Source: Actinomycetes bacterium
GTDB lineage: Bacteria > Actinomycetota > Acidimicrobiia > Acidimicrobiales > Acidimicrobiaceae
Direction of reading: 5' to 3'
Assembly (NCBI GenBank): GCA_021777475.1
Contig: JAJYDM010000002.1
Location: forward strand, 1-64,000
Length of the DNA: 64,000 bases
Shown here piece after piece: positions 34,579 to 37,551 of the stretch. The notes under the pieces were generated by a model, which saw only the letters and a list, made by a program, of their open reading frames with translations, was not told where the DNA came from and searched no databases. The stretch's first letter is position 1, and the number at the start of each line of letters is the position of its first letter. Position numbers and translations under genes: made by a program.

Positions 34579-35883
34579 CTAAAGCCATCCGATTACCGTT
34601 TGCACCATAAGCACCGCCGATAGCCCCGCGATCGCAATCACTGAGATGGCCGCAACTTTCCTGAAAATTCGTCCATTCACCGCATCACCAAGAACACTTC
34701 GCCTGTTTGAGAGAACCACGATAAATGTGAGAATAATTGGGGTAAGCAGACCCTGCAGCACCTGGGTGAATATCAGAAGCGTGATGAGGTTAACCGGAAC
34801 TAGCGAAACTGCAGCGCCAAGAAGCACCTGGGCAGAAAATAGTCCCAAGAAAAGAGGCGCCTGTCGAAACTTCCTCGAAACCGATCTCTCAACGCCAAGA
34901 GCCTCCGCAACGGCGTACGACGTCGATAGAGGAACCACAGCACCCGCCAAAGCGGACGCACCAAGCAAACCGATGGCAAAAAGAATCACTGCATGGGAAC
35001 CAGCGACAGGTGCAAGCGCCAGTGCCGCTTGTTTCGCCGAGCTCAGTGGTCCGGTGCCTCCAATGGCAGCCGCCGTGGCAATGATAATGAAAATCGATAT
35101 TATGTCGGCGAAAATTGCACCGCCAACAGCATCTGCACGCTCAAGCGGATACTCCTCCGGGGAGATGCCCCGGTCAACCACTCCCGCCGCGGCATAGACC
35201 TGCATATAAGGCGAGATCGTTGTTCCAATCAACGCAACCCCAAGAAATATAAAACTGTTTGAAACGATAAAATGCGGGAAGATGGTTTGTGCAGCCACCT
35301 TGTGCCAATTGGGATGCCCAAGTACTGCAGCCACCGGGTAGGCAAAAAAAGCCAATGACATTATTAGGAAGATCCGCTCCGCATAGCGGTACGAGCCGAA
35401 CACCACCAAGCCCCAGATAAACAACGCCGACATGGGGATCGACACGTAACGCGAAACCCCGAACAGCTGGAAAGCGGCGCCAATGCCGGCAAACTCCGAA
35501 ACGACAAGACCTGTATTCGAGGCCGTCAATGCAACCATAGCCAATCCGGTCAGCCTGACTGAGAACTCCTCGCGGATCAAAGCAGCTAGACCCTTGCCGC
35601 TGTAAACCCCGAGCCTCGTCGACATCTCCTGAACCACAACCAGCCCGACCGTAACCAGTACCATGAAAAACAATGTCCGGTAGCCAAACTGAGATCCAGC
35701 CGACGAATATGTTGCAATGCCACCGGCGTCATTACCCGCGTTGGCGGCGATCAGACCGGGGCCGGCTGCGGCTAGGTATACCCAGAACGGCCGCTTCCTC
35801 TTAGACGTGGAAACGCCGAAATGCACGCCGAAATGCCTACGTCCATTTTGATTGACTTTGCGCTTCGGCGCGGCTGAACTCAC
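34579..35883 (-). CDS. NRAMP-family divalent cation transporter with non-canonical metal site
   Basis: An 11- to 12-helix NRAMP-fold transporter, 434 residues, with a basic N-terminal tail of about 30 residues. In helix 1 the canonical DPGN is DAGG (residues 52-55): the Asp is kept, the Asn is lost. In helix 6 the canonical MPH(N) is SPY(M), so the Met and His are missing. These are the residues that select Mn2+/Fe2+ in classical NRAMPs, so a different ion, plausibly Mg2+ as in NRAMP-related magnesium transporters, is likely. It follows by 46 bp a soluble MgtE_N/CBS protein, which supports magnesium. Confidence 0.82.
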   Translation of the reverse strand: MSSAAPKRKVNQNGRRHFGVHFGVSTSKRKRPFWVYLAAAGPGLIAANAGNDAGGIATYSSAGSQFGYRTLFFMVLVTVGLVVVQEMSTRLGVYSGKGLAALIREEFSVRLTGLAMVALTASNTGLVVSEFAGIGAAFQLFGVSRYVSIPMSALFIWGLVVFGSYRYAERIFLIMSLAFFAYPVAAVLGHPNWHKVAAQTIFPHFIVSNSFIFLGVALIGTTISPYMQVYAAAGVVDRGISPEEYPLERADAVGGAIFADIISIFIIIATAAAIGGTGPLSSAKQAALALAPVAGSHAVILFAIGLLGASALAGAVVPLSTSYAVAEALGVERSVSRKFRQAPLFLGLFSAQVLLGAAVSLVPVNLITLLIFTQVLQGLLTPIILTFIVVLSNRRSVLGDAVNGRIFRKVAAISVIAIAGLSAVLMVQTVIGWL

Positions 35884-35929: not shown

Positions 35930-37264
35930 TTAGGAAAGCAAACGCGGGAAATGGAACCGTCCCCGCTCCGGAGATAGAGCATCGATAATGTCATCGGCCA
36001 GTATTCTGCCAATTGGCCTTTGATCCACCGCAACGACAATTGAAAAACGGCGGGAGCCGATGAGCTTTTCCGCCACTTCGCCAAGAGGTGTTGCGGGCTC
36101 CACGACGACCGGATCCTCAGATATCAACGCAGAAACTGGCACCACGCTATCAGCCAACGCCAACTCGTAAAGGGATACCTCGCCAAGCAGTATGCCCTCG
36201 AAGTCGACCACAAGCACGCCGTCTATCTCGTCCTTGTGATCGCGATGGGACTCCAAAAGGACCTTTACCTCGCCTACGGAGTCATTTGGCAGAACTTTGA
36301 CCAACATGGTCGTCATTACACCGCCTGCCGTATCGGCCTCAAATTCGAGCAAGTTTCCCAGCGCCCGGGCGGCTTCCGGTGCCATCAGCTCAAGAATCTC
36401 TTCCCGCTCGTCTTCATCAAGATCTCTCAAGGCCTCAACCGCCTCGTCGGGTTCCATGTACGACACAATGTCTGCGGCAACCTCCGGCTCCGACTCTCTG
36501 AGCAGAGCCTCGCGTTCGGCGGACTCCATCTCCTCTATGGCATCTGCCGCCGTCTCAATATCCAAAGCCGATAGCAATCCTTGGCGCTCGGTTCGGCCAA
36601 GATCCTCAAGAAGATCGGCAAGTTCGCTAGGCCGCAACCTCTTTATCGCCTGTTGCGAACTGCGCAGCCTGACAGCTCCAGTGTGCTCATCGAATGGAGC
36701 GACGGCGGCCCAGTCGAGAACCTTCTCCGGTGTTGCCGTTGAACGAAATCTTGCCGGGCCAAATCTTCGCAGCAATGAGTACATACTCACATCGACGCCG
36801 ACCAGCCTGAGGCGGCCCAGGGCATGAGCCAGGAACAAATCTGCAGCTCTTAGAACCTGCACACCGTCGACATCGACAAGCTGATGGTCAAGAATCTCTT
36901 TACCAAGTAGGACTTCTCCAGGACGTTGAGAAAAGTCCCTAAGATCCAATGTGGAGGAGGAAAGAACCACCGAGTCCCGGGAAAATGTCTCCACCCTATC
37001 GATGTCAACAAACGCGATTCTACGCCCGATCTTCACCAAGATTCCAGTGACCGGCGGATAGTCGGCGTCCTGGGACCACCGAACGACGACATCGACAAGT
37101 GTGCCGATTTCGGATCCGTTTTCGTTTATCACTCGTTTACCAGTATTGCCCGCCAAGGAAATGATCGACTCTCTGATACTCTTTATCGTCAGAAGTCGCT
37201 GAGATCTTGACTGTCGCATGCTTCGGATCCTGCGTGGATCCAACAGAATTGGCCTTCGCGCCAT
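35930..37264 (-). CDS. Stand-alone MgtE N-domain + CBS protein with PRC-barrel N-terminus (no channel domain)
   Basis: A soluble 444-residue protein. Residues 1-180 contain PRC-barrel-like strands (GSEIGTLVDVVVRW). About 205-300 is an acidic helical superhelix typical of the MgtE N domain (PSELADLLEDL, AADAIEEM, EAVEALRDLDEDERE). A CBS pair follows from TAGGVMTT. The five membrane helices of MgtE are absent and no membrane segment is visible. In MgtE the N and CBS domains bind Mg2+ and gate the pore; here they may gate or regulate the NRAMP protein encoded next. AAGGAGG lies about eight bases before the ATG. Confidence 0.85.
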   Translation of the reverse strand: MARRPILLDPRRIRSMRQSRSQRLLTIKSIRESIISLAGNTGKRVINENGSEIGTLVDVVVRWSQDADYPPVTGILVKIGRRIAFVDIDRVETFSRDSVVLSSSTLDLRDFSQRPGEVLLGKEILDHQLVDVDGVQVLRAADLFLAHALGRLRLVGVDVSMYSLLRRFGPARFRSTATPEKVLDWAAVAPFDEHTGAVRLRSSQQAIKRLRPSELADLLEDLGRTERQGLLSALDIETAADAIEEMESAEREALLRESEPEVAADIVSYMEPDEAVEALRDLDEDEREEILELMAPEAARALGNLLEFEADTAGGVMTTMLVKVLPNDSVGEVKVLLESHRDHKDEIDGVLVVDFEGILLGEVSLYELALADSVVPVSALISEDPVVVEPATPLGEVAEKLIGSRRFSIVVAVDQRPIGRILADDIIDALSPERGRFHFPRLLS

Positions 37265-37344
37265 AGGACTGTCCTCCTTTCACGTGGAGAAACGCCCTAG
37301 GAGATCAACCGCAAATTCTGATTCCCAAGCCAGCTGCTCTTAAA
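37265..37344 (-). promoter_or_regulatory. Leader between the small ORF and the MgtE_N gene; possible SD-occluding hairpin
   Basis: The AAGGAGG ribosome site can pair with TCTCC just upstream (minus strand, 37290-37286 with 37277-37272), and also with CTCCT further up, so it could be masked. This is a weak fold drawn by eye. I looked for M-box sequence conservation and found none. Confidence 0.3.
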
Positions 37345-37431
37345 TCAAAAAATCGTTATTGGCGGTGAAATCCGGAGGGACGTCATGAACGAATAGTTGA
37401 AGTCGGTACTGTGAGGTTCACTAGGCTTCAT
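37345..37431 (-). CDS. 28-codon leader ORF with perfect Shine-Dalgarno, before the MgtE_N/NRAMP genes
   Basis: ATG at 37431 is preceded by AGGAGGTGA (nine bases from AGGAGG to ATG), one of the best ribosome sites in the window. The product begins MKPSEPHSTDF and ends SPPITIF, with prolines and acidic residues early, then TGA. Pro/acidic leader peptides destabilise ribosomes at low Mg2+ in known mgt leaders, so this ORF may sense Mg2+ and control the downstream genes. Its end is 80 bp from the next ATG. Translation is well supported; the function is inference. Confidence 0.55.
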   Translation of the reverse strand: MKPSEPHSTDFNYSFMTSLRISPPITIF

Positions 37432-37551
37432 GGTCAATCACCTCCTAAGCTCGGCCAATACTACGCAGCGTTAACTGCCAACAACAGAATAGCTGACGAT
37501 TGGGGCAAAGGGCGGCAAAAAAGTGCAGATTAGCTCGATAAATTTGCGAAT

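Follow-up and report, generated by a model that had tools for sequence, protein, structure and literature searches.

Known leaders of Mg2+ transport genes

Ribosome-based sensing of Mg2+ by leader peptides is already known from enterobacteria. In the published excerpts available, the mgtA and corA leaders are described as an upstream ORF (uORF) set in a stem that hides its own Shine-Dalgarno (SD) sequence, together with a rut region, and transporter output is inverse to uORF translation (PMC11282234, PMC11552253, PMC8092293). In MgtL, ribosomes are lost at acidic and proline codons when Mg2+ is low (PMC11282234, PMC11552253, PMC8092293). The destabilising motifs given in the excerpts contain a pair of acidic residues, either neighbouring or one apart, for example EPDP (PMC11282234).

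Compared with these accounts, the leader ORF described below is similar to MgtL and CorL of Salmonella and E. coli in being a short, SD-led uORF that stands before a Mg2+ transporter, has its SD in a predicted stem and is accompanied by a pyrimidine-rich, rut-like stretch. As in MgtL, acidic and proline residues fall in the first codons, and CorA is also among the genes found behind the leader. Unlike MgtL as excerpted, it lacks the EPDP double-acid motif, most leaders having a single core acidic residue. It differs from both in its fixed AGT (AGN) codon, its place mainly before NRMT operons and its occurrence in Actinomycetota and Chloroflexota.

Other described leaders share further parts of this arrangement. 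mgtQ, found before mgtB in Salmonella, is likewise a short ORF behind AGGAGG whose first codons include acidic ones, and the ribosome-binding site of the transporter gene is held in a stem-loop with alternative pairings; however, mgtQ has 8 codons, lies between mgtC and mgtB, and no fixed AGN codon is reported in the excerpted account (PMC8092293). In an actinobacterium, the pe20 Mbox leader of Mycobacterium tuberculosis has the same layout of SD1, an anti-SD inside uORF1 and SD2, again in connection with Mg2+, and Rho is involved. Unlike the present locus, the pe20 leader is driven by an Mbox aptamer, which is absent here, and the excerpt describes its uORF1 as poorly conserved (PMC12810186). 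The same downstream gene pair, NrmT/MgtE_N, is under Mg2+ control in C. acetobutylicum, where the excerpted work describes an M-box riboswitch, an aptamer RNA, in place of the leader peptide proposed here (PMC4072509). No description of the present leader was found in the open-licence literature searched.

The leader ORF and its operon

In the window (the whole stretch of 64,000 nucleotides analysed), a 28-codon ORF, MKPSEPHSTDFNYSFMTSLRISPPITIF, is found on the minus strand at 37345..37431, with its ATG at 37431 and its TGA ending at 37345. It is preceded by an SD sequence (SD1), AGGAGGTGA, read from the sequence at 37438..37446 (minus strand). An earlier sequence-only reading had drawn attention to this ORF and its strong SD before MgtE/NRAMP genes; the coordinates and the minus strand were verified, as was the gap of 80 nt between the leader stop and the ATG of the MgtE_N-CBS gene. 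The same reading called the leader 'Pro/acidic', a label which is apt only in part. The peptide does contain E5, D10 and four Pro, and its early acidic and Pro codons (E5-P6 in the window) are conserved family-wide as an acidic-Pro core. The most constrained feature, absent from that account, is the AGT codon (37410-37408) within core codons 4-9, S-E-P-H-S(AGT)-T (37405..37422, minus strand).

No Rfam family matched the window leader region or 12 related loci at the gathering threshold, and the sole match at E<=10 was at chance level and outside the leader region. The M-box (RF00380), yybP-ykoY and other known RNAs were rejected as the identity of the leader because none gave an Rfam covariance match. 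Neither a sigma-70 promoter nor an intrinsic terminator was matched at the window leader.

Downstream of the leader, an MgtE_N-CBS protein of 444 aa without a transporter domain is encoded at 35930..37264 (minus strand; Pfam PF03448, PF00571), with its own ribosome site (SD2, AGGAGG) read from the sequence at 37273..37278 (minus strand). The operon also encodes an NRMT-type Nramp transporter of 434 aa (34579..35883, minus strand; Pfam PF01566), whose best solved match is 7qia (EleNRMT, a Mg2+ transporter) with 333 bits, the next solved Nramp scoring 66 bits. The binding-site signature of NRMTs consists of Gly in helix 1 and Thr and Ala in helix 6, replacing Asn, Ala and Met. In the window protein the Gly and Thr of NRMTs are present and the Met is absent, with Ser where NRMTs have Ala. 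The genome that contains the window, 96% complete, yielded neither CorA nor an MgtE transporter domain, and the NRMT operon may therefore be its main Mg2+ importer.

The Ser in place of Ala would suit an explanation in which the leader senses another ribosome-slowing cue (Mn2+, the supply of AGU-reading tRNA, EF-P or ribosome-directed antibiotics) and the transporter is one output among others. A rare AGN codon as the most constrained feature points the same way, as does the excerpted finding that an A. capsulatum NrmT without a riboswitch carried Mn2+ rather than Mg2+ (PMC4072509). Such a cue is nevertheless rather improbable, given that EleNRMT, the closest relative of solved structure, carries Mg2+ and that the motif recurs before other transporters, as set out below.

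Conservation across Actinomycetota

Eight of nine genomes of the genus gave a match to the locus, seven of them being close orthologues (G006 has a distant match only and G003 none). All seven close orthologues carry the leader ORF, which starts with ATG in four and GTG in three, is 28 codons long in six and 33 in one, and contains KPSEPHST[DE]F throughout; GGAGGTGA within SD1 is invariant in the seven sequences. The sequence-only reading had named loss of the ORF or its start among relatives as one refuting result; in the genus, 7/7 close orthologues retain the ORF together with its SD and start. Judged from the sequences, conservation of the leader ORF in the genus exceeds chance.

Beyond the genus, the leader was found at 9 of 12 further orthologues in the family (L048-L059, 50-56% identity; absent in L057-L059), at 16 of 22 in the order (L072-L093; absent in L072, L075, L082, L084, L085 and L088) and at all three in the phylum (L095-L097). 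In the named collection, L021 has the leader and L019, L020, L022 and L047 do not; the Kitasatospora loci L019 and L020 had been considered as carriers and were rejected, as no convincing leader was found. Across Actinomycetota the leader precedes 36 of 49 close orthologues and is absent in 13, with L018 and L055, which have the same sequence, counted once. None of six distant paralogues (L060-L065, 38-40% identity) has a leader. The survey leaves out L008, L066-L069 and L094. A strict KPSEPHST pattern was tried and found too narrow, matching only 2 of 298 genomes. L075 has a degenerate leader some 180 nt upstream of the MgtE_N-CBS gene, with CTG in the start position; it reads SAGQGPSS, retaining the AGT codon and losing the acidic residue.

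In most loci the leader lies 43-156 nt before mgtE_N. Simple translational coupling, or an upstream ORF without any regulation, would also show such a short gap and strong SDs. On neither view is it explained why one codon never changes or why the leader is linked separately to four kinds of transporter, and we regard both views as very improbable.

A conserved core with a fixed AGT codon

Across genera only the core persists, namely acidic-Pro-(Pro/His/Ser)-Ser-(Thr/Ser/Pro), a few codons after the start. Total leader length varies between 17 and 35 aa, and the remainder of the peptide is unrelated between genera. All 47 distinct leaders, with 27 different N-termini among them, spell the core Ser as AGT, a codon that on average serves for 7.8% of Ser in the downstream genes. 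The filter that defined these leaders required Ser, not AGT; the leaders are mutually related, and no probability is claimed for the 47/47. A test for an acidic residue followed by Pro-AG[TAG] was applied to 615 other short ORFs behind an SD in these loci, and only 3 passed it.

Other core codons vary mostly at the third position: the Glu codon is found as GAA (36) or GAG (5), one Pro codon as CCC (35), CCT (9) or CCG (1), and another as CCA (20), CCG (11), CCC (3) or CCT (2). Whole codons have also been inserted, as in GD-I-PHSP and SPDQPPST. Both kinds of change are as would be expected if the core is translated. Within the genus, changes in codons 14-28 do not favour the third position, so constraint as peptide is limited to the core, and amino-acid constraint along the whole peptide was rejected as unsupported for these codons.

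These data bear on two further explanations. In the first, the locus would be an RNA element only, a Mg2+- or protein-binding hairpin (a novel riboswitch) in which the ORF is incidental. The AGT found in every leader and the strong nucleotide-level conservation of codons 3-13 in the genus would be natural for such an element. However, the start codon varies among ATG, GTG and TTG only, the distance from start to core changes only in multiples of three, and the core varies at third positions and by whole codons; these observations, with the absence of any Rfam match, make a purely RNA-based element unlikely. In the second, the product of the ORF would be a small protein with a function of its own, exerted in trans on the transporter. 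The ORF looks translated and its N-terminus is conserved, but only 5-6 residues are conserved in a peptide otherwise so variable in length and sequence, and it is a codon that is fixed, not merely a residue. A trans-acting protein is accordingly highly doubtful.

RNA folding and proposed mechanism

In the RNAalifold consensus of the seven same-genus sequences, SD1 and the start codon pair with an anti-SD in codons 16-20 of the leader ORF, TGACGTCCCTCC (37374..37385, minus strand), which forms the 3' strand of the predicted SD1 hairpin (37374..37445, minus strand) and leaves the core codons apical. SD2 lies in a separate predicted hairpin (37265..37298, minus strand), in agreement with the earlier suggestion that bases further upstream are able to pair with the ribosome site of the MgtE_N gene. 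In three other groups, too, the consensus fold buries SD1 and places the core in the apical region, making four groups in total. This apical position of the motif would again suit the RNA element considered above.

The earlier call for a folding check is borne out by these consensus hairpins at both ribosome sites, but not by the single window sequence, whose fold is unremarkable (z -1.10; 26 of 200 shuffles as good). Covariation was considered as proof of the hairpins and rejected as too weak: it is weak for the SD1 hairpin, the SD2 hairpin has two double-changed pairs, not above shuffles, and in the genus 2 of 39 pairs are double-changed, with 108 of 500 shuffles as high. Over the 47 leaders the SD1/anti-SD duplex has a mean z of -1.34, with 12 of 47 in the best 5%, and is strongest in one genus.

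Base composition was found to be skewed as well. Past the core, the body of the leader ORF has a mean C of 0.414 and a mean G of 0.239, with C exceeding G in 24 of 26 distinct leaders; the downstream genes, taken for comparison, have 0.313 and 0.324, with C exceeding G in 10 of 26. A C-rich, G-poor stretch is a hallmark of Rho loading, and the composition of the body would suit a Rho-loading stretch, an anti-SD, or both.

From these features, the ORF is probably a cis-acting leader peptide which makes the Mg2+-transport operon Mg2+-responsive and works like enterobacterial MgtL/CorL. Membership of that group is not claimed, since the two-acid motif is absent and a fixed rare codon is added. 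Ribosomes would already be engaged at SD1 before the 3' strand of its hairpin has been transcribed. With adequate Mg2+, neither the acidic-Pro codons nor the rare AGU would stop them, and by translating the ORF to its end they would hold the SD1 hairpin open; the C-rich anti-SD/rut-like stretch would then be free for Rho, for pairing with SD2, or for both, and the operon would be off. With low Mg2+, pausing or loss of ribosomes at codons 5-8 would let the SD1 hairpin close over the C-rich stretch, and mgtE_N and nrmt would be transcribed and translated. The direction of this switch, on at low Mg2+, is assigned from transporter function. We infer Mg2+ dependence, ribosome drop-off and a role of Rho by analogy with the enterobacterial leaders.

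A related leader in Chloroflexota

In Chloroflexota, a leader was found at 18 of 19 orthologous loci (33-38% identity). It consists of GGAGG followed by an in-frame GTG-GA[GAC]-NNN-GGA-CCN-AG[T/A/G] (V-E/D-x-G-P-S/R); in the exception, L045, there is a one-base shift. At codon 6, 13 loci have AGT, four AGA, one AGG and none AGC, and as the pattern itself demanded AG, only the third base of this codon is a test. In the downstream genes AGT accounts for 4 of 241 Ser codons, and AGA/AGG for 19 of 575 Arg codons. The Chloroflexota leader may be either homologous to the actinobacterial one or convergent. In most of these leaders (L025-L043) a GC-rich hairpin (GGCGC...GCGCC) lies about 5 nt past codon 6, where a pausing ribosome would meet it.

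Association with other Mg2+ transporter families

A first, looser blind pattern was rejected as a specific detector, as it matched at least 177 of 298 genomes and controls matched similarly. The specificity figures therefore rest on a stricter pattern, blind to genes, which gave 23 matches in 213 genomes of the order and 21 in 392 of the phylum (2 shared); reversed-pattern controls gave 4 and 3. At 22 of the 42 distinct matches a Mg2+ transporter (MgtE_N-CBS/NRMT, a second NRMT family, MgtE or CorA) lies within 1.7 kb downstream. In every one of the 22 the motif is in frame with a start at SD spacing, a further point against an RNA element with an incidental ORF, and only 3 of the remaining 20 are in frame (L175, L189 and L197). 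Out-of-frame matches such as ATGGCAACCGGAACCGTCAAGT (L172, L173 and similar) presumably resemble the starts of cold-shock genes.

Among the transporters reached in this way are two full-length MgtE genes (L164 with 117 and L165 with 116 bits to PF01769), preceded by MRSEPPSRRPRGA..., and a single CorA gene (L166; PF01544, 226 bits), preceded by MSGEPPSRRPRS. By the filter used, no such leader was found at ten other CorA genes scanned in six genomes, and for this reason the link between leader and Mg2+ transporter, as read from these loci, is specific but patchy. The substrate common to MgtE and CorA is Mg2+, which speaks further against another ribosome-slowing cue. Since the same short motif independently precedes NRMT operons, a second NRMT family, MgtE and CorA, its association with Mg2+ is well supported. 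This part of the earlier proposal of a Mg2+-sensing leader stands; the stalling or drop-off that it invoked is a putative mechanism, with one core acidic residue here against the EPDP of MgtL.

A broader reading, which we hold tentatively as possible but short of probable, is that of an ancient, portable, ribosome-read Mg2+ cassette. It would consist of an acidic residue, Pro-Pro or Gly-Pro, and a rare AGN codon in about the first 5-9 codons, attached separately to NRMT, the second NRMT family, MgtE and CorA. The AGN codon is AGU in Actinomycetota and AGU, AGA or AGG, never AGC, in Chloroflexota. Nascent chain and codon would act together, and the cassette would be unlike MgtL in needing a specific codon; the fixed AGN codon gives a one-base handle on this joint action. 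If such leaders also govern NRMT, MgtE and CorA in Actinomycetota and Chloroflexota, gauging of Mg2+ via translation would be general. The leader could then serve, as the M-box did, as a genome-searchable mark of Mg2+ (not Mn2+) specificity for Nramp relatives.

The second NRMT family was reached via two in-frame matches among those listed for the looser pattern. It belongs to Pfam Nramp, and its best solved match is again 7qia. In a search of 42 family genomes, the leader was found at 12 of 28 loci (L130-L157), including 7 of 7 in one genus, where it reads MRSEPPST... or MQSEPPST...; no recognisable leader was found at the other 16, one of which has only 91 nt of upstream sequence. This survey leaves out L158 and L159.

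Two minor observations concern the same genes. In several family genomes (e.g. G033:C90:13303-16369) the second NRMT gene and a distant MgtE_N-CBS paralogue often converge, lying tail to tail. In three genomes only, another upstream ORF, with 43-44 aa and the ending DCSPRHVLxG..., has a stop that overlaps the start of the second NRMT gene (L129 in G011, L131 in G019 and L132 in G034).
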